NCBI GenBank assembly: GCA_001303225.1 | Contig: LJNI01000111.1 | Span: 1-17,864, forward strand | From: a candidate division TA06 bacterium DG_78 | GTDB taxonomy: Bacteria; Hydrothermota; Tepidihabitantia; SM23-42 | Reading direction: 5' to 3' | Length of the DNA: 17,864 bases | Part shown: one piece after another, positions 3,610-16,278 of the stretch | Position numbering within the stretch: position 1 is the first letter of the stretch | Layout: each line of letters begins with the position of its first letter | The notes under the pieces: model-generated | What the model was told of the DNA's origin: nothing | Seen by the model: only the letters and a program-made list of their open reading frames with translations | The model's database searches: none | Position numbers and translations under genes: made by a program

Positions 3610-3696
3610 CGCATCGAGACGTATCATGAACCATCACTATCTGCTCCAGAAGTTGTCAAAATCATCGGACAGCCCACGCTACGCAACATCGTAAGT

Positions 3697-5493: not shown

Positions 5494-5981
5494 ATAGACT
5501 CCTCAGTCGGTCTGGAATACTTCCGCAGAAAGCGGGCCAGTACAATGCCTCCAATAATTAGTATAACCATTGCTGGAACGCCAAACGCAACGAACGTTAG
5601 GTCTAGATGCAACAGTTCCTTCAGTACGATATCAAGTGGAACACATATGGCAAACATCACGCCGATCAGATAAAGCCGGTCAAAATGCAGGAAATACGCG
5701 GCTAAGCTGAACACAACAAGCATATTGCCCACCCATATGCCTGGTAGTAATAATTCTGCCGGCAGCGATTGAGGCAAAGAACCTTTAGCACTGAGTGCCG
5801 CAATAACAAACGCTACCAAACCCACAAGAACCGATATAGCAAGGACGATCACGGTCTTTAGGTTTCTAGCTTTCCCCTTCGGACCATAAATCACACGACC
5901 TATGCGTGGTGTTGTAATGAAACGCTTGCCTGCCCAAAGGAATAGAATTGCTGCGACAATTAAGAACATATAAATGATCAT
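5490..5981 (-). CDS. Paralogue B membrane protein, main fragment after N-terminal deletion
   Basis: 163 residues starting MIIYMFLIVAAILFLW. It has the family signature loop 'GKRFITTPRIGRVIYG', four or five later hydrophobic segments and a 'LRKYSRPTEE' end. Compared with paralogue A it lacks the 'DGLLDIFLG' element and most of the first hydrophobic segment, roughly 35 residues. The missing N-terminal sequence is present just upstream in another frame (6046-5978) and stops in an ATGA overlap with this ORF's ATG. The ancestral gene therefore seems to have suffered an internal deletion and frame change. The fragment may still be made by reinitiation after the 22-residue leader, since there is no separate Shine-Dalgarno. 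It could be a functional shortened protein or a decaying gene. Confidence 0.7.
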   Translation of the reverse strand: MIIYMFLIVAAILFLWAGKRFITTPRIGRVIYGPKGKARNLKTVIVLAISVLVGLVAFVIAALSAKGSLPQSLPAELLLPGIWVGNMLVVFSLAAYFLHFDRLYLIGVMFAICVPLDIVLKELLHLDLTFVAFGVPAMVILIIGGIVLARFLRKYSRPTEESI

Positions 5982-7473: not shown

Positions 7474-7548
7474 GCGCCTGTAGCTTTCGCCCCGTGAAAT
7501 ATATTATCCTCTATTTCACGGGGCAAGCTGGATAGAGCGACGGACTTC
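7474..7548 (+). pseudogene. Truncated tRNA-Arg(TCG) copy interrupted by a hairpin insertion
   Basis: Bases 7474-7485 (GCGCCTGTAGCT) equal the first 12 bases of the intact tRNA-Arg at 16020-16093. Bases 7528-7548 equal 21 consecutive bases of its D-arm and 5' anticodon arm, ending inside the anticodon. Between them, three tRNA bases are replaced by 42 bases (7486-7527) dominated by a perfect hairpin with 13-base arms (7489-7501 and 7512-7524). Homology stops in the anticodon loop, where many tyrosine recombinases cut tRNA genes. The copy is on the plus strand, opposite to the intact tRNA. Read as an integration scar or attachment-site remnant. Confidence 0.75.
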
Positions 7549-7664
7549 CATCTCGTCTCGATGATATCGAGACTTCGATATCGAGAGAGAATTCGAATAT
7601 ACTACACTTTGAAATCGCTGAGATTACGGTGTATCAATGCTTGGACCAAAAGTGGACCAAATGG
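7549..7664. other. Spacer with ATATCGAGA palindromes and a TGGACC direct repeat
   Basis: Immediately after the tRNA fragment come overlapping copies of GATATCGAGA and its inverse (about 7557-7591). At 7641-7664 TGGACC is repeated with an 11-base period. The same arrangement with TGGCAC, also 11 bases apart, is found at 10551-10576. Such short paired repeats next to tRNA-derived sites could be recombinase arm-binding sites. That is inference only. Confidence 0.35.
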
Positions 7665-7696
7665 AAAAGGGGGGTAGTTGATACTACTCCCCTTTT
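7665..7696 (-). terminator. Intrinsic terminator of the beta-propeller surface protein gene
   Basis: Fourteen-base arms (7665-7678 and 7683-7696, core GGGGTAGT / ACTACTCCCC, one G-T pair) with a four-base loop. It lies about 20 bases beyond the stop codon of the minus-strand gene and ends in a T run in the transcript. The same style of terminator follows the other two sorting-tail genes. Confidence 0.8.
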
Positions 7697-7717
7697 ATTC
7701 TTTATTGCAGCGATCAT

Positions 7718-8008
7718 TTATTTTGTCACCACAATTTTTCTGATGAACTCAGCATCTTCTGTTCTCACCTTCAAGAAATAAACACCGGCACTTAGGTTTT
7801 TCACAGAAACCGTGGTTGTATTCTTAGGTTTTATCATAGTCACTTCTATCACCAAATCGCCAAGGACATCATATACTTTGATGCCATGCAATGGTGTAGA
7901 AGCACAAATGGTGAGTGATGTCTTTAACGGATTAGGATAGAGGTCCAAAACGAAAGGCGCGGTGTTTTGCGCTATTTCTTCTATCCCTGTCGATGAATCC
8001 CGAATCAC
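7718..8008 (-). CDS. Frameshifted C-terminus of the propeller protein: Por-type sorting tail
   Basis: Ninety-six codons readable from a GTG at 8008. The sequence runs SSTGIEEIAQNTAPFVLDLYPNPLKTSL, then HGIKVYDVLGDLV, then LSAGVYFLKVRTEDAEF and ends IRKIVVTK. This is the beta-sandwich sorting domain that directs proteins to type IX secretion in FCB-type bacteria. It is not an independent gene. Removing one copy of the 38-bp duplication at 8049-8124 puts it in frame with the propeller ORF upstream, giving '...WNPVQNRVYVANYHGSSISVIRDSSTG'. In the sequenced state the large ORF ends without this tail, so the exported protein could not be anchored or secreted by that route unless the frame is restored. 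Confidence 0.8.
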   Translation of the reverse strand: MIRDSSTGIEEIAQNTAPFVLDLYPNPLKTSLTICASTPLHGIKVYDVLGDLVIEVTMIKPKNTTTVSVKNLSAGVYFLKVRTEDAEFIRKIVVTK

Positions 8009-10146
8009 TGAAATACTTGAACCATGGTAATTTGCGACATAGACCCGGTTCTGAACAGGATTCCAGGCAAAGGCAGAAGGATAATCTTCTGAACAGGATT
8101 CCAGGCAAAGGCAGAAGGATAATCACCGACCGTGATGGTGGTAAACACGCTGTCGGCCGCACCATCAATTACGGAGACATCATCGCTCGACTGATTTGCA
8201 CAGTAGACTTTGTTGTTAATCATATTACAGACTAAGGCCCAAGGAAAACTATCGACCGCAACCGTGGCAATGATCGTATCGCTCACGCCATCAATCATGG
8301 AAACGTTATTGGTATACTTATTTGTGCAGTAGACTTTGTTGTTGGTTGGATTATGGACTAAAGCTCCACCGCCGGCCTCAACGATCGTAATTACGCTGTC
8401 GGTCGCGCCATCGATGATTGTTACATCATCGTTAAACCAGTGTCCGCAGTAGATCTTGTTGTTAGTGGAATTATAGGCTACCTCGTCAGGTTCGTGGCCA
8501 ACAATAATGGTGGTAATCACGCTGTCGGCCGCCCCATCAATCACGGTGACACTTCCAGAAGGATACATAAAATGATCCCCGAGGCAGTAGATCTTGTTGT
8601 TGGTAGAATTATAGACTAATGCACGAGGTTCAGAACCGACCGGGATGGTGGTGATCACGCTATTGCTCGCGCCATCAATCACGGTGACATCAGAGCTCGT
8701 TTCATTCATACAGTAGACCTTGTTGCTGATTGGATTATAGACTAGTGCCCAAGGCCAATAGCCGACCGGGATGGTGGTGATCACGCTATTGCTCGCGCCA
8801 TCAATCACGGTGACATTATAGCTACCCCTATTTGCACAATAGATCTTGTTGTTGGTCGGATTATAAACTAGGGACACAGGATAACTACCGACCGGGATGG
8901 TGGTGATCACGCTATTGCTCGCGCCATCAATCACGGTGACATTATGGCTAGCCCTATTTGCACAGTAGATCTTATTGTTAGTCGGATTATAGACTAAGGC
9001 CCAAGGTTTATAACCGACCGTGATGGTAGTAATCACGGTGTCGGTTGCGCCGTCGATCACGGTAGCATTATTGCTGTATGAATTTGCGCAGTAGACCTTG
9101 TTGTTGACGGAATTATAGACTAAGTCATACGGATGATCACCGACAGCGATGGTCGTAATCACGCTGTTGGTCACGCCGTCGATCACCGTGACATTGTCGC
9201 TATTATAATTCACACAGTAGACCTTGTCGTTTGTGGGATTATAGATTAGGTTACTAGATCCGCTGCCGACCGCAATGGTGGCAATGATCATATTGCTCGC
9301 GCCGTCAATTACGGCCACACTATCATTATTCACATGTGCGCAGTAGACCTTGTTGTGGGTCGGATTATAGACTAATTTTCCACCGCCGGCCTCGACGGCT
9401 GTAATCACGCTGTTGCTTGTACCATCAATCACGGTGACATTACCGCTAGACGCATTTGCGCAGTAGACCTTGTTGTTGATTGAATTATAGATTAAGGCAT
9501 AAGGATGATCACCAACCGTGATGGTGGTAATCACGCTGTTGGTCGCTCCGTCAATCACCGTCACGTTATCGCTCCCATTATTTGCGCAGTAGACCTTGTT
9601 GTTAGTTGGGTTATGGACTAAGGCAAGAGGGCGATCACCAACCGGGATAGTGGTGATCACGCTGTTGGCCGCCCCGTCGATCACGGTTACGTTGTCGCTG
9701 TAATTATTTGCGCAGTATACTTTGTTGGTAACTGGATTATGGACTAAAGCGCAAGGTTCATCACCGACCGTAACCGTGGTAATCACGCTGTTGGTCGCCC
9801 CGTCGATCACCGTGACAGTGCCTTCGAGGTATATATGATGCCCGTAGTTGGCACGGTAGATCTTGTTGCTGGTTGAATTGTAGCAAAGAGAAAAAGTACC
9901 GGAACCCACAGGAATTCTAGCAACCTTTTCGTCCGTTTCCCCGTCTATTACAAGCACGCAATTACCTTCACCACCAACATAGATTTTGTTGTTCGTTGGA
10001 TTGTAAGTGACGGCGTGAGGCTCTGTAACTCCGCAAAGTGAATCCGGAATATAGATTGTGGTTTCAAGCCATTGGGCAGACGCGAGGAGTGGCAATAACA
10101 AAAGCAACATGATCGTCGGAAAGAATCTCTTTTGATTAACAAGCAT
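8005..10146 (-). CDS. Secreted YVTN-type beta-propeller repeat protein (C-terminus lost by frameshift)
   Basis: Starting at the ATG 10146, preferred because GGAG lies about seven bases upstream, the protein has a signal peptide (MLVNQKRFFPTIMLLLLLPL, then LASAQ). About 16 repeats of roughly 42 residues follow, of the form 'xVTVIDGATNSVITTI-VGxxP-ALVYNPTNNKVYCAN'. These match YVTN/NHL-like beta-propeller blades, enough for two seven- or eight-bladed wheels. Almost every blade carries a Cys in 'YCAN' where the YVTN family usually has Val. Near its end an exact 38-bp tandem duplication shifts the frame, so the ORF finishes with about 25 unrelated residues and TGA at 8005-8007 instead of running into the sorting tail at 7718-8008. 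The usual role of such proteins is as surface or extracellular propellers, often of unknown ligand. The gene has its own promoter and terminator. Confidence 0.9.
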   Translation of the reverse strand: MLVNQKRFFPTIMLLLLLPLLASAQWLETTIYIPDSLCGVTEPHAVTYNPTNNKIYVGGEGNCVLVIDGETDEKVARIPVGSGTFSLCYNSTSNKIYRANYGHHIYLEGTVTVIDGATNSVITTVTVGDEPCALVHNPVTNKVYCANNYSDNVTVIDGAANSVITTIPVGDRPLALVHNPTNNKVYCANNGSDNVTVIDGATNSVITTITVGDHPYALIYNSINNKVYCANASSGNVTVIDGTSNSVITAVEAGGGKLVYNPTHNKVYCAHVNNDSVAVIDGASNMIIATIAVGSGSSNLIYNPTNDKVYCVNYNSDNVTVIDGVTNSVITTIAVGDHPYDLVYNSVNNKVYCANSYSNNATVIDGATDTVITTITVGYKPWALVYNPTNNKIYCANRASHNVTVIDGASNSVITTIPVGSYPVSLVYNPTNNKIYCANRGSYNVTVIDGASNSVITTIPVGYWPWALVYNPISNKVYCMNETSSDVTVIDGASNSVITTIPVGSEPRALVYNSTNNKIYCLGDHFMYPSGSVTVIDGAADSVITTIIVGHEPDEVAYNSTNNKIYCGHWFNDDVTIIDGATDSVITIVEAGGGALVHNPTNNKVYCTNKYTNNVSMIDGVSDTIIATVAVDSFPWALVCNMINNKVYCANQSSDDVSVIDGAADSVFTTITVGDYPSAFAWNPVQKIILLPLPGILFRTGSMSQITMVQVFQ
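8049..8124. repeat. Exact 38-bp tandem duplication inside the propeller gene
   Basis: Bases 8049-8086 and 8087-8124 are identical over all 38 positions and abut exactly. Because 38 is not a multiple of three, the second copy shifts the frame. Deleting one copy restores a continuous ORF from 10146 to 7718. The flanks differ, so the duplication is precise. It could be real (phase switching or recent mutation) or an assembly error at a repetitive gene. Confidence 0.95.
8125..10010. repeat. Array of about 126-bp coding repeats (propeller blades)
   Basis: The coding sequence of the propeller protein repeats at the DNA level with a period near 126 bases. Phrases such as GCGCCATCAATCACGGTGAC and CAGTAGACCTTGTTGTT recur. 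Some adjacent units (about 8640-8990) are nearly identical, indicating recent duplication or gene conversion and a hot spot for unequal recombination. Confidence 0.85.
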
Positions 10147-10187
10147 TTTTATCTCCATTGATACACATATCCTTATTACACAATTCA

Positions 10188-10216
10188 ATCATATCCTGAA
10201 ACAATATAATTGTCAA
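10188..10216 (-). promoter_or_regulatory. Promoter of the propeller gene
   Basis: Minus strand TTGACA (10216-10211), a 17-base spacer and TATGAT (10193-10188), about 40 bases before the ATG. The next two minus-strand genes of this region also have TTGACA promoters at a similar distance from a tRNA-like site (about 95-108 bases). Confidence 0.7.
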
Positions 10217-10315
10217 CTGTGAAATTTCTGTGAAATGACTAGATTTATGATTCGTTGCGATTCTGTGAAAATACCTAACCAGTCAATCGTAACAGGCAGA
10301 TCAATCCAACGCAAG

Positions 10316-10333
10316 TTGCGGATTATAAGTCAT
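10316..10333. other. tRNA-anticodon-arm-like site B
   Basis: TTGCGGATTATAAGTCAT. Read on the minus strand it and the next bases (GACTT..AATCCG.A..TTGCGT, 10306-10333) follow the 3' half of tRNA-Arg, from the anticodon loop to the start of the T-stem, with substitutions in the anticodon. It lies in the spacer between two gene groups, about 105 bases from the -35 box of the propeller gene. Confidence 0.5.
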
Positions 10334-10672
10334 CTTAATTTGAAATCAAGAGAAACGCGGCGGACTCTTGGAGGTTCCGTTTTGTGGAACCGGAAATCCC
10401 GCTGTTGTGTGCGGGGAAAATCCGATTTGGCCATTTTTCATAACCCCCACGATTACAGCAGAAATCGCACAAAGTCAAGTCAGACAAACATTTGCACCAT
10501 TCTGGCCGTTGCTGGATTTTCTGTCCTGTACCGAATGTTTTGGTAACAACTTGGCACTGAGATGGCACTGGATTGGTGTTACAGCATCCCCTCGATACGG
10601 CAAGAGCATTCCTTGCCACTGTTGGTGCGAGAAGAATCTACTTTATGATTGCGCTTGCATTAGTGCTCTGCA
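10334..10672. other. Non-coding spacer with hairpin and TGGCAC direct repeat
   Basis: Open frames in this stretch have no ribosome sites and unnatural composition, so I call no gene. It contains a small hairpin (GGTTCC 10373-10378 with GGAACC 10386-10391). At 10551-10576 TGGCAC occurs twice with an 11-base period, the same layout as TGGACC at 7641-7664. Confidence 0.4.
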
Positions 10673-10700
10673 TTGACATCCTAGGTATGTACAATATAAT
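10673..10700 (+). promoter_or_regulatory. Consensus promoter for the small exported protein gene
   Basis: TTGACA (10673-10678), a 16-base spacer and TATAAT (10695-10700), with AGGAGG at 10711-10716 and the ATG at 10721. The implied leader is only about 14 bases, just enough for the ribosome site. Confidence 0.75.
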
Positions 10701-10720
10701 AATCCAGTAGAGGAGGAAAA

Positions 10721-11107
10721 ATGAAGAAGTACACAGCGATTGTATTACTATTGTCCTTTGTAAGTCTACTTTTGGCAAAGACCGATACCACAGTAGAGCA
10801 TGATAATACCAGTGGCGATGTTGCATACGTTGAGCGAAAAGGAACTGATGGAACCGACCAATTGAATTCGTTAAAGCGTCTATCGTATTGTAGAACCGCT
10901 TTTAGTTTGTATGCGTCTAGTCGCTGGTTACGATATCAATCAGTGGAAGATACTGCAGGAACGGTTATTGAGGAGGAAAAGGAAAAAGCAGGAGGCTGTT
11001 TCTTGTTTACTCCACCGGGAAATATCCTTTTATATACGGCGGGGGCGGTTGTTCTTATCTATCTTATGGCTACATTGATTCTTGGCGGCCTCTCAAATGG
11101 ATGGTAA
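10721..11107 (+). CDS. Small exported protein with C-terminal transmembrane helix, unknown function
   Basis: 128 residues. A signal peptide (MKKYTAIVLLLSFVSLLLA) is followed by a polar, exported region of about 70 residues (KTDTTVEHDNTSGDVAYVER...) with two Cys, and then one long hydrophobic helix (about 101-122, NILLYTAGAVVLIYLMATLI) near the C-terminus. AGGAGG lies four bases before the ATG, and a perfect promoter precedes it. No family recognised. The plan (signal peptide, polar stretch, late TM) resembles the product of 11690-12106 in the same block, though the sequences are not clearly related. It is the only plus-strand gene between 3933 and 14911, so it stands alone or entered separately. 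Confidence 0.7.
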   Translation: MKKYTAIVLLLSFVSLLLAKTDTTVEHDNTSGDVAYVERKGTDGTDQLNSLKRLSYCRTAFSLYASSRWLRYQSVEDTAGTVIEEEKEKAGGCFLFTPPGNILLYTAGAVVLIYLMATLILGGLSNGW

Positions 11108-11112
11108 TAGTA

Positions 11113-11247
11113 TCAAGGAAATATAGACAAGTATTGTAGCCTCGCCAGGTCGTTATCCCACAACACTTCCAGAGACACATTTTTGTAAAACCTCACCATT
11201 TGTCCCAGAATCGATGTCTTGGCGTAGGACAAATCAAATTTATCCAT
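11113..11247 (-). CDS. Possible 44-residue ORF or gene remnant
   Basis: On the minus strand, ATG at 11247 to TGA at 11113 reads MDKFDLSYAKTSILGQM, then VRFYKNVSLEVLWDNDLARL and a short end. The composition looks protein-like (balanced, one Trp, helix-forming), but there is no ribosome site or promoter. It lies beyond the terminator of the 11334 ORF. It could be a truncated remnant or chance. Confidence 0.2.
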   Translation of the reverse strand: MDKFDLSYAKTSILGQMVRFYKNVSLEVLWDNDLARLQYLSIFP

Positions 11248-11284
11248 ATTATGTTTGACCTGGGCTGTTTTTCAGAAAAGAAGG

Positions 11285-11314
11285 GGAGGGGGTGACCGCT
11301 TAAGTCACTCCTCC
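11285..11314 (-). terminator. Terminator after the orphan sorting-tail ORF
   Basis: Imperfect hairpin (GGAGGGGGTGAC 11285-11296 with GTCACTCCTCC 11304-11314). In the minus-strand transcript it is followed by a pyrimidine-rich CCTTCTTTT. It lies about 20 bases after the stop at 11334. Confidence 0.6.
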
Positions 11315-11333
11315 TATGTTACACTTCCAATGT

Positions 11334-11720
11334 CTATCTGACCTTAACTACCTTCTGCGTCACAACGCCGTCAACTTCGATGAAGTAGATACCTGGGTTC
11401 ACTCTGTCTGGTTCTACGACTCTCCCTATGATGTCAAAGACTTTGCAGGTTTTGTCTTTTGGTAACACCAATGGACCTTTGAAGACAATGGCATTAAGAC
11501 TGTTATTTTTAATAATCGTGTTGTTCTCTTGTACACCGAGATTTGAATCAGGGCTGATTACAGTAAAATCATCGTTACCGCCAATGCCATAGCTCTCTCC
11601 TGCAGCATAGCCGTTGCCATCCACACAATCACGCCTGATGCTACATCGTTGCGTCTCTTTACGTTTCTCCCTACGTGCAGCTCCTTGTATTACTTTTCCC
11701 ACTTCAACTCCCACTCCCAC
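11334..11720 (-). pseudogene. Orphan C-terminal sorting domain, probably a gene fragment
   Basis: The frame is open for 128 codons, but only the last half looks like protein: NAIVFKGPLVLPKDKTC, then KVFDIIGRVVEPDRVNPGIYF and IEVDGVVTQKVVKVR. This is a Por/type IX-type sorting tail of a second subtype, different from the 'FIRK-V-V' form of its neighbours. The upstream part (GVGVEVGKVIQGAARREKRK) overlaps the end of the previous gene and shows no domain, signal peptide or ribosome site. A sorting tail without cargo is not useful alone, so this is probably the 3' remnant of a deleted surface-protein gene, or a tail that lost its frame with the ORF upstream. The start is undefined (GTG codons only). 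Confidence 0.6.
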
Positions 11721-12106
11721 GTGCGCATGAACACGACAAGAGCCACTACTGATATTACGGTTCCGGCAATTGCGCCGATCAGAGCTTTCTGCTTTTTCCT
11801 TGACTTCGTTGCATCCTTGTACCCCTCAACATAACCGACTTTGAATTCTTGAGGACCTTCAGGAATAAGACTTGGCGAATCGCCTGATGCGAGTAAGAAA
11901 ACTATGCCGCCACCAAGACATGCACCCAACAAACCGCCAGCACAGCCGTGGGCCAGCCACTGAGTTTGACTGACCCTCCGACCGTCCTGTTTGCCTTCGG
12001 CATAGCCGTCATCATAAGTCATCTTTTCGGGAACTGATTCGATCTGTTGTGCGAAAAGAACGCCAGGCACCATAAACACCAACATCAATGCTACTATTTT
12101 TCGCAT
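11690..12106 (-). CDS. Exported glycine-rich membrane protein, unknown function
   Basis: The preferred start, ATG 12106, has GGAG seven bases upstream and opens directly with a signal peptide (MRKIVALMLVFMVPGVLFAQ). An ATG at 12145 with AAGGAGGT just upstream is an alternative and would add 13 residues. The mature part has 'YDDGYAEGKQDGRR', a Cys/Gly-rich hydrophobic stretch (GCAGGLLGACLGGGIVFLLA), a second 'VGYVEGYKDATKSRKKQK' element and a final hydrophobic helix (ALIGAIAGTVISVVALVVF). Two 'GY-EG--D' elements, each beside a glycine-zipper-like helix, suggest an internal duplication. No family recognised. It overlaps the orphan sorting-tail ORF by 31 bases. Confidence 0.65.
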   Translation of the reverse strand: MRKIVALMLVFMVPGVLFAQQIESVPEKMTYDDGYAEGKQDGRRVSQTQWLAHGCAGGLLGACLGGGIVFLLASGDSPSLIPEGPQEFKVGYVEGYKDATKSRKKQKALIGAIAGTVISVVALVVFMRTWEWELKWEK

Positions 12107-12201
12107 GTTCGATCTCCACACAGTTACTGTCTTCACTTCATGCATACTACCTCCTTGCATCTATTACGCAATATAAGAAACAACTGTAAATTACATATAG
12201 T

Positions 12202-12229
12202 AATATATGTATTTCAATAATGCTGTCAA
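12202..12229 (-). promoter_or_regulatory. Promoter of the glycine-rich exported protein gene
   Basis: Minus strand TTGACA (12229-12224), a 16-base spacer and TATATT (12207-12202). The implied start is near 12195, leaving a leader of 50-90 bases depending on the start codon used. Confidence 0.55.
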
Positions 12230-12318
12230 GGACAACAAGTGTGCAAATTTCGGCACAGAAATAATGTCCGACATATTTGAGTCCAGAAAAGTATTGCGAC
12301 ATTAACCTGGGTAACTGT

Positions 12319-12347
12319 GTTAGATAGCCTGCGGATGGTAAGTCCGT
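12319..12347. other. tRNA-anticodon-arm-like site C
   Basis: Contains CGGATGGTAAGTCCGTA (12332-12348), identical over 17 bases with site E. On the minus strand it reads ACGGACTT, a variable triplet, ATCCGCAGG, then ATCTAA. The first parts match the anticodon arm of the intact tRNA-Arg. Over 29 bases it shares 23 with site D, including the extension past the arm. The core is an inverted repeat with five-base arms and a seven-base loop. Confidence 0.6.
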
Positions 12348-12420
12348 AAGTCGATATTGTATGAGTTCAACTAATTATGTTCATTCTATACCGAAATTGG
12401 GTGAAAAGTGAACTAAAACA

Positions 12421-12450
12421 AAAAGGGAGTAACTTAGATTACTCCCTTTT
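12421..12450 (-). terminator. Terminator of the second surface-protein gene
   Basis: Perfect 12-base arms (12421-12432 and 12439-12450, core AGGGAGTAA / TTACTCCCT), a six-base loop and a T-rich continuation in the minus-strand transcript. It starts about 22 bases after the stop at 12473. Confidence 0.85.
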
Positions 12451-12472
12451 GCTCTGTAATTCTAGTAATATT

Positions 12473-13876
12473 TTATCTTGCCACAACTACCTTTCTGATG
12501 AATTCGTTGCCTTCAGTAATAACTTTCACAAAATAGACACCCGGGTCTACATTCACTAATGAGACTTCTCTTTTACGCTGAACCTCTGACCAACTTTCTG
12601 CTTTCAATAGTCTGCCACAAACATCATAGATTTCAATGTCTTGCAGCGGCGTTGGCGAATGAATCGTGAAGGATGCCCTTGTAGGATTCGGAGAAATATA
12701 AGGTATTGAACGCCACAGAGTCTTCTTTCCATCTTCTTGTACGCGATCGATGAATATGTAACTGCCATAGATGTCCCAATCGCCGTCGCGATTTGTCTGC
12801 CAAAAAACCCAAAGGTACATGAGACTCCCGGTCATGACGGGCCAGACATCGTCTGCCCGGCTCGTGTCCACCTGAATTAAGGTGTCACCGGGATATCCAA
12901 GACTGAATAGTGTATAGACATCATAATTACCATTCCGGTTGGTGCTGAATGCAGTAATCGGTGGACCCTCTTGTCGACCAATCGCCATGAACGGTAACGG
13001 GCTCGGTGTAATGTCCGCAGAATCATTGAAGGTCCTACGGTACTGCACATTGAGCGTATCGAATGCCGTCGTGTAGATCTCATAATTACCGTCGCGGTTA
13101 GTTTCCCAGACTATCCAAATGCCCGAATATTGGCCTAAGGAAGCTATCTCAGGATTTGCGTTAAAGTAAGTATCATCTGTTATGGGTTGAGGTATCTGCC
13201 AAGAACCATTAAGATACTCAGTATAATAAATATTGCTCGCAGACTCAATTTTCTGCCAGACAACCAAGGGATGGTCGTATCGAATGTTGATTTTCGGCCT
13301 GCAGTTGACCACCTCAGAATCATTGGTTAACGGATACGGAGTTGACCAACTGGTTCCATCATAATATGAAGCGTAAATATTCATGAAGGATACTGAATCG
13401 CCAATTAATAACCCTCTCTGCCATACGACCCAGACAGTATCACTGATAACACAAATTGATGGCAGATCTTCCATCAGTGTATCAGACGTCAATTGATGAG
13501 GTGGAGACCATCCATTGATTTCACTCCCCTGGGATACGTAGATGCCATCGTTACCTGAACCATAATAATGCCAGACACACCAAAAACAATCTCTCGCAGG
13601 GTCATAAGCCACACTTGGAGACTCATCCATAAACACATCAGTTGATATTCTGAATGTATCGCTCCATGTCGATCCATTACTGAATCGCGAAAAGATATCG
13701 TCATATCCATTGAGATTAGATTCCCACACGACAACGATCCAAAGATCATCCAATACTTGAGCGCGGCAAGCCTGCGGATTAATATCGTTTACTCCCTCTA
13801 TCCCGAGATCAATTGGCGGTGACCACCAAGCCAATGAAATGCTGGCACAAAATACTGCCAATAATGGTATCTTCAT
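12473..13876 (-). CDS. Secreted beta-propeller-like surface protein with Por-type sorting tail
   Basis: 467 residues from the ATG at 13876, preferred over 13882 because AGAGGA lies right against the latter and eight bases from the former. After a signal peptide (MKIPLLAVFCASISLAWW) come about six repeats of 50-60 residues. They carry 'WIVWETNRDGNYEIY', 'TAFSTNRNGNYDVYTL' and 'VFWQTNRDGDWDIYGSY' type motifs, with a Trp-rich strand before each. This resembles the TolB/BNR-like blades of extracellular propellers ('SNRDGNxEIY'). The end (SPNPTRASFTIHS, IEIYDVCGRLL, VDPGVYFVKV, FIRKVVVAR) is a complete type IX-type sorting domain, of the same subtype as the frameshifted propeller gene. It should be exported to the surface or medium. 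The ligand is unknown, and the sialidase active-site Arg triad is not evident. It is a single-gene unit with its own promoter and terminator. Confidence 0.88.
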   Translation of the reverse strand: MKIPLLAVFCASISLAWWSPPIDLGIEGVNDINPQACRAQVLDDLWIVVVWESNLNGYDDIFSRFSNGSTWSDTFRISTDVFMDESPSVAYDPARDCFWCVWHYYGSGNDGIYVSQGSEINGWSPPHQLTSDTLMEDLPSICVISDTVWVVWQRGLLIGDSVSFMNIYASYYDGTSWSTPYPLTNDSEVVNCRPKINIRYDHPLVVWQKIESASNIYYTEYLNGSWQIPQPITDDTYFNANPEIASLGQYSGIWIVWETNRDGNYEIYTTAFDTLNVQYRRTFNDSADITPSPLPFMAIGRQEGPPITAFSTNRNGNYDVYTLFSLGYPGDTLIQVDTSRADDVWPVMTGSLMYLWVFWQTNRDGDWDIYGSYIFIDRVQEDGKKTLWRSIPYISPNPTRASFTIHSPTPLQDIEIYDVCGRLLKAESWSEVQRKREVSLVNVDPGVYFVKVITEGNEFIRKVVVAR

Positions 13877-13935
13877 CTTCATTCCTCTACGATCTATTTA
13901 TCTAAGCGTACAGCTACCGAATCATTTCTACAGAA

Positions 13936-13964
13936 ATTATATGTTCACATCAAGCAAATGTCAA
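13936..13964 (-). promoter_or_regulatory. Consensus promoter of the second surface-protein gene
   Basis: Minus strand TTGACA (13964-13959), a 17-base spacer and TATAAT (13941-13936): perfect boxes at ideal spacing. The leader is about 50 bases. Confidence 0.8.
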
Positions 13965-14066
13965 GGTGGGAGAATTATATCCGTTCTGGCACAAAACTGA
14001 CGCAATGAACACCTGTTAAACGTAAGCAGTCCCACAATATTGAAAATAATATCGTTGAGATGAACG

Positions 14067-14095
14067 ATTAGATGCCCTGCGGATTATTAGTCCGT
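14067..14095. other. tRNA-anticodon-arm-like site D
   Basis: Contains CTGCGGATTATTAGTCCGT. On the minus strand it reads ACGGACT, a variable stretch, AATCCGCAGG and ATCTAA. The five-base arms and seven-base loop imitate a tRNA anticodon arm. It matches site C at 23 of 29 bases. It lies about 108 bases from the -35 box of the surface-protein gene and about 70 bases before the hairpin that ends the next gene. Confidence 0.6.
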
Positions 14096-14163
14096 TGTCT
14101 GGGGATATGTGAGATGTTTAGTTGGAAGTCCCGTTTCGATTTCTGTTGTGTAATTAGCAGAGC

Positions 14164-14176
14164 GGGGATTTGCCCC
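14164..14176 (-). terminator. Weak hairpin after the HExxH gene
   Basis: GGGGATTTGCCCC directly after the stop at 14180, on the minus strand GGGG, a five-base loop and CCCC. There is no T run, so terminator activity is uncertain. Confidence 0.3.
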
Positions 14177-14179
14177 ATT

Positions 14180-14620
14180 CTACTCAAGCTCTTCATCGAT
14201 AGGCTCTTGTAACCGACCAAAGGATAGTGATTTTTGAGTCCCAGTGGCTGATAGATAACCTTTTGTTAAATCTTCAACAGTAGACTCCAAAATCATCATG
14301 AATTGCGTGCAAGCGAATTCACGTTTTGGATCATCCTCTTTCTCGCCGAAGACACTGGATAAGAGACCTTCAATCATTTGGTCCATCCCGTACAGTTTCA
14401 GATGGAGTAACTCGTGAATCACCAACTCCTCAAGATTTGTACATTTGGGGGTGCGATTCACCAAAAGGACTGCTTTCTTATCCTCCAAATCAATCTTTAT
14501 ATCTCCAGATTTTCTCCATTTGGTTCTGACTATTTTGACTATTATGTCCCAATCTCTTAACCTTAAGATGTCCTGCCATCTATTTAGATGTTTCTCTACC
14601 TCTCCTTTATTAACGCTCAT
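14180..14620 (-). CDS. HExxH-motif putative metallopeptidase
   Basis: 146 residues, no signal peptide or membrane helix. A helical N-terminus (VEKHLNRWQDILRLRDWDI) leads to a strand-rich part, then LEELVIHELLHLKLYGMDQM with His69-Glu70 and His73 forming an HExxH zinc site. The acidic region after it (GEKEDDPKREF) and a helix to residue 120 may supply the third ligand, but I cannot identify it. The small size and the order of strands before a helix with HELLH resemble SprT-like/'minigluzincin' and ImmA-type proteins of mobile elements. Exact family uncertain. AGGAGG lies about eight bases before the ATG. Only 20 bases separate it from the upstream ORF at 14641, so the two may be co-transcribed. 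Confidence 0.75.
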   Translation of the reverse strand: MSVNKGEVEKHLNRWQDILRLRDWDIIVKIVRTKWRKSGDIKIDLEDKKAVLLVNRTPKCTNLEELVIHELLHLKLYGMDQMIEGLLSSVFGEKEDDPKREFACTQFMMILESTVEDLTKGYLSATGTQKSLSFGRLQEPIDEELE

Positions 14621-14640
14621 CTCTACAGCCTCCTACTCAA

Positions 14641-14925
14641 TTACTTCTTTACGATAAAAGTCATTTCCGATAGCCAAAATGTGAATGCCGCTGCTCTCGT
14701 TATTGCTTTTATATCATTCACCAACCCTTTGGGAAGGAATGGAGCTGCATCTAAACACCTTACAATGCAATGCCTTTCTCCACGTTGACTGATTATACTG
14801 TCCGCCATTGTCATGTCAACAAAGTTTGAGATTGCCGCGTCGTCCCGTTTCATATTCTCGAAAGAAAATATAATAAGGGCACCTTCAACAATGACATACA
14901 CGACCAAAGCATGTTGACTAATCAT
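14641..14925 (-). CDS. Possible small protein upstream of the HExxH gene
   Basis: Up to 94 residues; an internal ATG at 14853 would give about 71. The C-terminal part (MADSIISQRGERHCIVRCLDA) followed by FLPKGLVNDIKAITRAAA reads like a real soluble protein, and the spacing to the HExxH gene (20 bases) fits an operon. Against it, no ribosome site is seen, its 5' end overlaps the divergent methyltransferase ORF, and no family is recognised. Confidence 0.4.
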   Translation of the reverse strand: MISQHALVVYVIVEGALIIFSFENMKRDDAAISNFVDMTMADSIISQRGERHCIVRCLDAAPFLPKGLVNDIKAITRAAAFTFWLSEMTFIVKK

Positions 14926-14955
14926 TCACAATCATTACCATATTTTGAGAAAATC

Positions 14956-15723
14956 ATGATGTATTTCAATGGTAAGGATTCCGCAAAAAGGTATGCCCTA
15001 TATCGCCCAAACATTCATCCAAAAGTGATCCAAATTATCAAGTCGAACATAAAATCGGAGAAACCGATAAGATACGCTTTAGATGTGGGTTGCGGCACTG
15101 GCCAATCCGCAATCGCACTAAAAGCACTCGCAGAGAAGGTAATCGCTATTGATATATCGCCGGATATGATTTCACAGGCACCACGCAGCGAACAAGTAGA
15201 ATATATATGTGCGGCCGCAGAAGCAATACCACTACGAAATGCGATTTTCCATCTCATATCCGTGGGGCTTTCACTTCACTGGTTTGAGCGCGGCAAATTC
15301 ATGACTGAAGCTGTCCGGTTAATCAAACCACGCGGGTTGCTGGTCATATATGATAATTTCTTTTCAGGCGTTATGCGGGAAAACGATGAATTTCAAAAAT
15401 GGTTTCGGGGCACATTCATGCGGAAATTCCCTACGCCACCGCGCGACTGTAGGCCTTTAGAGGATAAAAAACTACGTCGATACGGCTTTGGCCTCGAAAA
15501 AGAAGTGGATTACGAAGAAAATATCACCTACAATCTTGATCAACTTGTTGGCTATGTTACTACCATGACCAATACGGTAGCGGCCCTCAAGAAAGGTATT
15601 GTAGAGTTAGATGTAGTGCTCGATTGGCTTGAGTCTTCGATCAGACCATTCTTTATAGGACAAGACAAGTGTACTATTTTGCATCGAGGCTGGATCAAAT
15701 TCCTAAAAAAACTAGATAATTGA
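14956..15723 (+). CDS. Class I SAM-dependent methyltransferase
   Basis: About 255 residues from ATG 14956. An upstream in-frame ATG at 14911 adds 15 residues of doubtful character. Start choice is uncertain, as only a weak GAG precedes it. The opening 'YFNGKDSAKRYALYRPNIHP' is typical of the Methyltransf_11/yeast Crg1-like small-molecule methyltransferases. Motif I is ALDVGCGTGQS, followed by VIAIDISPDM with the ribose-binding Asp, then EAIPLRNAIFHLISVGLSLHWF (motif II/III region) and EAVRLIKPRGLLVIYDNFF (motif after the fourth strand). The C-terminal half carries lid-type sequence. The substrate is unknown. It stands alone on the plus strand, diverging from the HExxH pair. Confidence 0.88.
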   Translation: MMYFNGKDSAKRYALYRPNIHPKVIQIIKSNIKSEKPIRYALDVGCGTGQSAIALKALAEKVIAIDISPDMISQAPRSEQVEYICAAAEAIPLRNAIFHLISVGLSLHWFERGKFMTEAVRLIKPRGLLVIYDNFFSGVMRENDEFQKWFRGTFMRKFPTPPRDCRPLEDKKLRRYGFGLEKEVDYEENITYNLDQLVGYVTTMTNTVAALKKGIVELDVVLDWLESSIRPFFIGQDKCTILHRGWIKFLKKLDN

Positions 15724-15810
15724 TAATGAATCTGTCCGCGGTATATCCTACTAAAAACAATCCTTTCTGGTAGGTATTCGCGTTAGTAAAGGAGACAGCC
15801 ACCACGGGAT
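15724..15810. other. Spacer after the methyltransferase gene
   Basis: Contains CCTAC...GTAGG (about 15748-15774), a weak stem that might end the methyltransferase transcript. Nothing else is recognised before the tRNA-like site. Confidence 0.25.
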
Positions 15811-15832
15811 TAACGGATGGTAAGTCCGTAGG
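15811..15832. other. tRNA-anticodon-arm-like site E
   Basis: TAACGGATGGTAAGTCCGTAGG, an inverted repeat with arms ACGGA/TCCGT around a seven-base loop. Seventeen central bases are identical to site C. The arms and neighbouring bases equal those of the intact tRNA-Arg 200 bases to the right, in the same orientation; only the anticodon bases differ. Confidence 0.6.
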
Positions 15833-15942
15833 TTTCGTAATTATCGATATGATGGATTTGCTTTTCGTAAAAGCGGTTTTAATTCGGCGTCCTCTTCGCC
15901 TTAGCTGGATTCGGGGCCTGCAATTCCGCAGTCAAATTAATA

Positions 15943-15973
15943 TAGAACCCCGCACTTTCGGTAGAAAGTGCGG
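15943..15973. repeat. Strong hairpin downstream of the tRNA (terminator or REP-type)
   Basis: CCCGCACTTTC, GGTA, GAAAGTGCGGG: a perfect 11-base stem just downstream of the minus-strand tRNA-Arg. It lacks a T run. Together with the neighbouring CAAATC...GATTTG stem it could stop the tRNA transcript. The stretch 15833-15942 holds nothing else I can identify. Confidence 0.5.
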
Positions 15974-16019
15974 GATACACAATTCTACAATCAAATCACA
16001 GATTTGAGTATAATTGGAG

Positions 16020-16093
16020 CGCGCCTGGCGTGACTTGAACACGCAACCTACGGATTCGAAGTCCGTCGCTCTATCCAGTTGAGCTACAGGCGC
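16020..16093 (-). tRNA. tRNA-Arg, anticodon TCG
   Basis: Minus strand, full cloverleaf: acceptor GCGCCTG pairing with CAGGCGC; D-arm GCTC...GAGC; anticodon arm ACGGA / TCCGT with loop CTTCGAA (anticodon TCG, reading CGA arginine codons); variable AGGTT; and T-arm GCGTG TTCAAGT CACGC. The discriminator is G, and CCA is not encoded. It is the intact parent of the fragments at 7474-7548, 10316, 12319, 14067 and 15811, and is probably the target of integrating elements. Confidence 0.95.
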
Positions 16094-16101
16094 ATATTTA
16101 A

Positions 16102-16131
16102 CCCAAATCTTCGATTTGGTTGTTAAATATA
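16102..16131. repeat. Long AT-rich hairpin upstream of the tRNA
   Basis: TTTAACCCAAATC, TTC, GATTTGGTTGTTAAA: an almost perfect stem of about 13 pairs with one unpaired base, about ten bases upstream of the tRNA 5' end on the minus strand. It may be part of the hairpin repeat cluster that follows. Confidence 0.5.
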
Positions 16132-16278
16132 GCGTCCTGGCTTTTCTATGAAAAGTCAGGGCTGCAGCAAATGATCACAAAATATAGCGTCCTGGCTTTT
16201 CTATGAAAAGTCAGGGCTACAAATGATCGCAAAATTGAGCGTACTGGCGTTTTGAAGAAACGTCAGTGCTGCAAATTA
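16125..16278. repeat. Three tandem hairpin repeats of about 52-55 bases
   Basis: Units start at about 16125, 16180 and 16232. Each begins AAATATAGCG or AAATTGAGCG, contains a stem such as CCTGGCTTTTC/GAAAAGTCAGGG and ends GCTGCA--AAATGATC. Units one and two are nearly identical. In unit three both arms change together (CTGGCGTTTTG/AAACGTCAG), keeping the stem. This compensatory change argues that the structure is selected or that the unit spreads as a palindrome. Confidence 0.75.

Follow-up and report, generated by a model that had tools for sequence, protein, structure and literature searches.

A probable recombinase-less array of small gene segments with att-type junctions beside a tRNA-Arg gene in a candidate division TA06 bacterium

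We analysed a 17,864-nucleotide stretch of DNA from candidate division TA06 bacterium DG_78 (contig LJNI01000111.1 of assembly GCA_001303225.1; hereafter the window), in which a row of genes lies between the 5' half of a tRNA-Arg gene and an intact tRNA-Arg gene. The region is probably a cassette array without a recombinase of its own, that is, a row of small mobile segments separated by attachment (att)-type junctions, with the tRNA-Arg 5' half as its anchor. A preliminary description of the same DNA had proposed either a stack of tRNA-targeted mini-elements or an integron-like array; a stack at a tRNA target has held up, but the attC-like fold expected of an integron is absent from the sites in the window. 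The window is contig C35 of the host metagenome-assembled genome, G000 (2.09 Mb assembled, 79.5% complete), and was compared with relatives in a set of 23 family genomes; genomes are given G codes and individual loci L codes.

Sites in the window and across the family

Four sites, B to E, punctuate the window. At sites C (12332-12346) and E (15814-15828) there is a perfect match to CGGATNNTAAGTCCG, reading CGGATGGTAAGTCCG in both cases, and site D (14080-14094) differs from CGGATNNTAAGTCCG by a single base; the corresponding cores, all taken on the plus strand, extend over 12330-12347, 15812-15829 and 14078-14095, respectively. Site B (10317-10331, plus strand) is damaged, its right arm being shortened relative to that of the matching site in G021 (L061:7082). 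The anticodon-arm-like sites first described in the window were recovered at C, D and E, and only in damaged form at B. The 17 bases counted as common to C and E stand, whereas C and D are identical at 23 of 28 positions and not 23 of 29. With up to one mismatch, CGGATNNTAAGTCCG occurs at nine places in the assembled 2.09 Mb of G000, four of them within tRNA genes. Within the window, ACGGACTTNNNATCCG with up to three mismatches has 11 matches against 3.88 expected, a number reached by none of 200 shuffles.

Across the 23 family genomes, CGGATNNTAAGTCCGT with at most one mismatch has 72 matches, compared with 16 for a backwards control pattern (summed from the table). Eighteen of these are identical to the tRNA-Arg(UCG) arm and 14 to the tRNA-Leu(UAA) arm. 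Among the 40 others, an uncurated count, 33 are intergenic (15 of 15 exact matches and 18 of 25 with one mismatch), a positive outcome for the intergenic enrichment that the preliminary description had proposed as a test, and 7 lie in open reading frames (ORFs), one of which (L197) is a site of the shared segment described below that a called ORF overlaps. A chance origin of the sites was considered and rejected: no perfect copy of CGGATNNTAAGTCCG other than C and E occurs in the assembled genome, and across the family every one of the 15 perfect matches outside tRNA genes falls between genes.

From 55 pattern matches we retained 39 as sites, their context being known during selection. The 16 that were dropped comprise two tRNA arms (L059:11176 and L142:9032), five matches outside the family (L020, L021, L043 and, twice, L067), five inside ORFs (L098, L102, L104, L106 and L111), a second-strand duplicate (L059:11093), two intergenic G010 matches without array features (L064 and L065) and a match with two mismatches (L057:2881). 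After this context-aware curation none of the 39 sites lies in an ORF of at least 120 aa, though ORFs make up 76% of these loci on average. In the core consensus, 7 bp are enclosed by conserved arms, each about 4-6 bp long. When the 39 cores were compared with 24 tRNA types from the examined loci, tRNA-Leu(UAA) was nearest for about 16 and tRNA-Arg(UCG) for 13 (ties shared); the nearest tRNA is Leu for site C and Arg for site E, each with 3 mismatches in 17 positions. At site E, positions 15825-15838 also agree with tRNA-Arg positions 40-53 at 13 of 14 bases, a weak match (E = 6.1). A core origin specific to tRNA-Arg, the resemblance originally claimed, is not supported, tRNA-Leu(UAA) being the nearest equally often.

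Homology between relatives often ends at site cores

In the sequences of relatives, the sites have the behaviour expected of recombination junctions at the ends of mobile gene segments. G003 (L053:8377-9738) and G019 (L197), which belong to different genera, have in common a 1.36-kb one-gene segment, of which 1229 bp align at 90% identity. Their left flanks show no relationship; identity starts at the first core and ends inside the second. G020 (L143) and G021 (L128) are 87-89% identical, with small gaps, from a tRNA-Arg 5' half to a site core and unrelated beyond it: scored in steps of 25 bp, identity is 88-100% over three steps ahead of the core, 72% in the step that contains it and 28-40% past it. 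The expectation that relatives would hold segments between different neighbours, with the junctions at the core, is borne out by these comparisons: two segments of one gene each recur next to different neighbours, at 89-90% DNA identity, and that of G003 and G019 has a core at either end.

At 19 of the 39 sites, homology to another locus breaks off no more than 17 bp from the centre of the core, against 261 of 1200 random intergenic points (L110, one of the 39 sites, lies outside the compared set). The telling point of these ends is how often one flank alone is common to two sites. Because the cores resemble each other, matches between sites that share one flank run through the core and stop behind it. 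The left flank of L056:6060, for example, is common to L057:5315, L060, L128:6217 and L129, and its right flank to L056:9680 and L128:13552. In the window, positions 14072-14181 match the modules to the right of L057:1981 and L057:5315 (82-85%), the match starting at core D; a 72% match of the D region to L055:8701 crosses the core. No whole segment of the window itself turned up at another locus with a break at each of its two cores.

These breaks bear on a regulatory explanation, in which the sites would be transcription-factor operators upstream of secreted-protein genes and their likeness to tRNAs and integrase arms would be coincidental. Several sites do lie, by reading of the sequence, upstream of promoter-like sequences of opposite-strand genes, but the operator reading was dropped after homology had been found to end at the cores, and we now regard it as very unlikely; it is also opposed by the position of some sites beside tRNA promoters and by repeats on one strand, 73-77 bp from the core, that match integrase 3' ends.

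Arm repeats and integrases

Beside cores, an 11-bp unit (consensus TGGCACAAA) is repeated directly in tandem, in one orientation. On the site strand, repeats scoring at least 13 of 18 are present to the left of 12 and to the right of 8 of 38 sites; the opposite strand has none on the left and 2 on the right, and of 1320 random intergenic sequences 65 reach this score. The distance to the core is 73-77 bp for every one of the 12 strong left repeats and 10-13 bp for 5 of the 8 strong right ones. The 12 left flanks fall into seven sequence groups, and six of the flanks are copies of a single module, which means that the 12 cannot be counted as independent. A second motif, GCAAAGCGTTGTAA, was derived from tRNA-adjacent loci and scored at 38 sites, L059 being omitted because its motif belonged to the training set; it is found 46-50 bp before the core in 10 of the 13 top-scoring sites and at 50, 50 and 51 bp at three integrase loci.

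In the window, site D has a strong left repeat (13987-14006, plus strand; 73 bp from the core, 15/18), a weak arm motif 48 bp before the core (14032-14045, plus strand) and a right-hand module (14096-14181, plus strand). Site C has weak repeats on both sides (12239-12259, 72 bp from the core, and 12397-12419; 11/18 each, plus strand) and, starting 46 bp before its core, the highest-scoring instance of the second motif among the 38 sites tested (GAAAAGTATTGCGA, 12286-12299, plus strand). No arm repeats are seen at site E.

Such repeats also form the 3' ends of tyrosine integrase genes that lie directly before a tRNA gene in relatives. The distance from the repeat at the integrase 3' end to the anticodon arm is 76 bp at tRNA-Leu(UAA) (L150), 75 bp at tRNA-Leu(CAA) (L147) and 78 bp at tRNA-Thr (L167), and comparable spacings, 74 bp (L146) and 72 bp (L056), occur at tRNA-Arg genes without a neighbouring integrase. 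At tRNA-Arg, G011 carries an intact 367-aa integrase (L161:1809-2912) that ends in TGGCCCAAAAGTGGACCAAA with the tRNA just downstream and that is preceded by a small excisionase-like ORF (by sequence reading only), and G004 carries an integrase gene with a masked stretch (L127) that ends in CTTCCACAAACCTTCCACAA before the tRNA. Four integrase-domain proteins were scanned against Pfam, and Phage_integrase was assigned to those of L161 and L147, the latter being the tRNA-Leu integrase of G016 (L147:3965-5065). Given the form of the repeats and their spacing, as at integrase 3' ends, the left arm of the sites is, at the level of sequence, of integrase attP-arm geometry. Because the repeats at 73-77 bp match integrase 3' ends in both respects, the sites appear to be built as phage-type att sites and not as attC hairpins. 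Similar tandem repeats are encoded at the 3' ends of family integrases at tRNA-Leu, at tRNA-Thr and near tRNA-Val (L147, L149, L150, L167 and L168). Among viral contigs the tRNA-Leu integrase has two distant relatives (28 and 33% identity) and the tRNA-Arg integrase none, and among species genomes (GTDB release 220) the matches were limited to an identical copy of the source contig and two distant ones in mycobacteria.

The arm repeats that flank many cores also count against a relationship to integrons, according to which the region would be a cluster of attC sites lacking an integron integrase (CALIN) recombined by an IntI-type enzyme. A row of one-gene segments with one site each and no integrase gene is what such a cluster would look like, but the four window sites form no long hairpin (six folds, z from -1.2 to +0.6). 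With folds at background level the attC reading was rejected, and we consider it highly improbable.

No integrase was seen in the window among the ORF translations or in the Pfam scan, as the preliminary description had stated. Its suggestion that a recombinase might lie near such an array is borne out in part: integrases adjoin tRNA-Arg in relatives, but no dedicated integrase was found inside an array of the family within these searches. Host enzymes could in principle serve instead, and we considered whether the segments are Xer-dependent modules whose cores are recombined by XerC and XerD. In Acinetobacter plasmids, pdif (Xer) modules consist of gene modules between short sites, with the recombinase acting in trans. 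G000 has two Xer-like recombinases, judged by domain make-up, and G000, G019 and G020 list two integrase-domain matches each and no more; in G019 and in G020, which is a single contig, these are open frames of 295-323 aa. However, dif consists of two 11-bp arms, unlike the short-armed cores seen here, and to our knowledge Xer enzymes make no use of distant arm repeats. Neither core nor arms are dif-like, and unlike pdif modules the present arrays lie on chromosomal contigs and are tied to tRNA genes. We regard an Xer-dependent origin as unlikely.

tRNA-Arg halves

The intact tRNA-Arg(UCG) gene noted previously was confirmed with ARAGORN on the minus strand, at 16019-16093. The truncated copy at 7474-7548 is also present, but it is more exactly a 5' half on the plus strand, the left anchor of the array. 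At tRNA positions 1-12 and 16-36 it agrees fully with the tRNA; a hairpin of 41 bp (7486-7526) interrupts the D loop, and a second hairpin (7549-7588, plus strand) is inserted in the centre of the anticodon loop (TTC^GAA). The anticodon-loop insert has similar counterparts in halves of G020 and G021 (L066:7505, L061 and L062) and none at the half L066:4618. Palindromic hairpins in the D and anticodon loops of tRNA-Arg halves are thus found in more than one genus (window 7486-7526 and 7549-7588; L062:2934-3020; L066:7505-7557). Past the half lies a conserved block (7595-7640, plus strand), within a stretch (7532-7642) that is 95-97% identical to two L062 copies; the propeller genes next to those copies align with that of the window at about 68-77%. 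The block is followed by an arm-type tandem direct repeat (TTGGACCAAAAGTGGACCAAATGG, 7641-7664, plus strand), and a similar repeat ends the G011 integrase gene.

A full tRNA-Arg query of the 23 genomes returned 22 matches that retain the 5' end and depart from the tRNA at or just behind the anticodon arm. These halves are of tRNA-Arg UCG and UCU origin and include two of ACG origin (G002) and two identical stretches near G017 contig ends. In all there were 25 matches with the 5' end only; the three left uncounted are G011:C98, which is paired with its own 3' half, G019:C51, which is cut by the contig end, and G010:C75, which is 79% identical. Matches with the 3' end only were limited to one at a contig end, one at a masked stretch and one of 75% (positions 14-73, G022). 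Several halves retain promoter-like upstream sequence (by reading). Since the upstream promoter region of the window half resembles those of halves in G014 (L063) and G021 (L176), the same ancestral tRNA was probably hit in all three.

The arrangement is most compact in G014 (L063), where a half (121-157), one gene, a site and the intact tRNA (2071-2144) follow each other within about 2 kb, with both tRNA sequences on the plus strand; in G017 (L133) a half at 3687 and the intact tRNA at 5736 are likewise both on the plus strand. G003, considered as a possible empty site, has an intact tRNA-Arg that adjoins the homologous operon and acrB, with masked sequence just upstream of that tRNA. In G020 a tRNA-Arg search found a 5' half and two matches of 72-75%, and no intact close UCG or UCU copy.

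Three sites, L063:1905 (G014), L053:8377 (G003) and L146:8123 (G001), lie, by reading of the sequence, roughly 12-15 bp ahead of a promoter-like sequence of an intact tRNA-Arg. In G011:C98 (L145:955-1067), the anticodon loop of a tRNA-Arg gene is split precisely after position 36 by a 39-nt, partly self-complementary insert. The two halves are of normal appearance, and in this 96% complete genome the tRNA-Arg search listed no second close copy of the UCG type. The gene may be a pseudogene or may have an unusual intron. Beside the tRNA-Arg of the window, four similar palindromic repeats occupy 15938-16273, and related sequence is found beside tRNA-Arg-like genes on contigs C108 and C69.

A model for the array

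In the model we favour, a segment comprises one or a few genes, often one for a secreted beta-propeller or other protein with a Por-type tail, bounded by att-type sites. Each site has a near-palindromic core (CGGA-7 bp-TCCG) that mimics a tRNA anticodon arm; arm-type direct repeats of 11 bp lie about 75 bp leftward of the core at many sites and 10-14 bp rightward at some. An integrase-bearing element would enter tRNA-Arg via the anticodon arm and supply a new 5' half, leaving the old half displaced; small integrase-less units with att-type sites would line up beside this element and be exchanged at the cores. We infer that the repeats are bound by a phage-type tyrosine integrase, acting in trans or now lost, which would exchange strands within the loop of the core, and that the segments of the window have moved as did those of relatives.

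Several observations weigh against this model. Strong left repeats are present at 12 of 39 sites, with window site D included, and absent from 27, and GCAAAGCGTTGTAA taken alone is not clearly enriched in the left flanks (5 of 38, compared with 67 of 1260 random ones). Homology crosses the core at 4 of 39 sites (275 of 1200 random points), three sites having both crossing and ending matches. The cores are nearly always reversed in sense relative to the tRNA arm, which the simplest model of tRNA insertion leaves unexplained. Nor does our model account for the apparent alternation of two loop types within arrays or for the opposite strands of the half and the intact tRNA-Arg in the window. With weak repeats at C, none at E and damage at B, the array of the window may be decayed. 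No excision product was seen, no search aimed at one having been made. The assembled part of G000 yielded two integrase-domain matches, both of Xer-like domain make-up, and none of the arm type. At both tRNA-Arg integrases (L161 and L127) the spacing is 56 bp, not 75, and of the eight integrase 3' ends read (L127, L147, L149, L150, L161, L167, L168 and L169) none uses a non-tRNA site core as its att core. Our confidence in the model is slightly lowered by the reduction of the 12 left arms to seven groups and by the 56-bp spacing at the tRNA-Arg integrases.

Some of these observations would fit ordinary accretion, in which successive tRNA-targeted islands inserted at one tRNA-Arg, lost their integrases and decayed, the sites being dead att remnants with no present movement. 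The integrases at tRNA-Arg in relatives (intact in G011, with a masked stretch in G004) agree with this, as do the damaged site B, the weak arms at C and E and the lack of an arm-type integrase in the G000 assembly. However, a whole one-gene segment is common to two genera with its junctions at two cores, left and right modules have been re-paired at several cores, and a unit of about 1.4-2.8 kb could hardly accommodate its own integrase gene. The segment common to two genera and the re-paired modules suggest exchange and not one-way accretion alone, and we consider accretion possible but somewhat doubtful.

The array model can be extended to a gene-capture platform, in which mostly single-gene cassettes, each with one complete phage-type att site whose core is a copy of a tRNA anticodon arm, would be shuffled within arrays by a helper integrase in trans; such a platform would be integron-like while working on attP logic, and would swap secreted proteins and defence genes in Stahlbacteria. 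We put this extension forward tentatively, as a real possibility that falls short of being probable.

Comparison with known systems

The tRNA-targeted genomic islands of Islander combine a tyrosine integrase, a tRNA target, crossover in the anticodon arm and a displaced tRNA fragment at the far end (PMC4383910). The arrays resemble them in part: arm-type repeats lie beside anticodon-arm-like cores, and half and intact tRNA share one orientation in G014 and G017, but in the window the two are on opposite strands and no integrase was seen. Unlike in most of those islands, the displaced fragment here is the 5' half, a rarer form, carried by 159 of 3919 islands, and tandems of three or more number four (PMC4383910). 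The units, being about 1.4-2.8 kb long and integrase-less, would not pass the Islander filters, and most junctions here lack a tRNA fragment. Like CALIN (PMC11389934), the arrays are rows of gene units, each with a single recombination site, that lack an integrase and whose units are shuffled; in relatives the exchanged units mostly hold one gene, as judged from two shared segments and from the 19 of 39 sites at which homology ends at the core. The sites here, however, look like phage-type att sites with arm repeats; no IntI-specific search was made. Tycheposons are likewise associated with tRNA genes, a tyrosine recombinase and cargo genes, but they are described as elements of 4-200 kb with a recombinase (PMC10872708; PMC11389934), whereas the units in the window and the mapped arrays are recombinase-less, of about 1.4-2.8 kb and from another phylum. 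In the openly licensed literature, covered through titles and the beginnings of abstracts and with WOR-3 mobile integrases included, we found no description of such arrays.

If these are indeed arrays of att sites, cassette logic would have arisen more than once, integrons being the standard collectors of single-gene cassettes, and tRNA-targeted islands could decay into, or evolve into, single-gene units mobilised in trans. Island finders such as Islander, which requires an integrase and rejects candidates of less than 2 kb, would miss such units (PMC4383910). The combination of a core and repeats at 73-77 bp would also serve as a marker for listing mobile genes in an uncultured phylum.

Gene content

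The cargo of the window and of related arrays includes YncE-like and other beta-propellers, Por_Secre_tail proteins, a GNAT acetyltransferase, S41 and M23 peptidases and a methyltransferase. In G011 a CAP12/Pycsar-type TIR protein (PADLOC PDC-S35; L130:8638-9501), a defence cargo, is encoded between a tRNA-Arg half and a site.

The segments of the window are not all single minus-strand genes: B-C and D-E also hold plus-strand ORFs. Segment B-C contains a small plus-strand ORF (10721-11107) and two minus-strand ORFs of 156 and 128 aa without a Pfam match (11334-12160). Segment C-D encodes a 469-aa protein with a Por_Secre_tail (12473-13882, minus strand). In segment D-E, a minus-strand ORF of 146 aa with an HELLH motif (14180-14620), which at the DNA level has an 85% identical counterpart in G020 (L066), is followed by a methyltransferase gene on the plus strand (14911-15723). 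The gene of segment 1 (7718-10188, minus strand) encodes, by the ORF list and Pfam, a YncE/YVTN-type beta-propeller, with a C-terminal Por_Secre_tail in another frame, and past it lies a terminator-like inverted repeat (7671-7692, by sequence reading). Near the frameshift that parts the propeller from the Por_Secre_tail there is an exact 38-bp tandem duplication (8049-8124).

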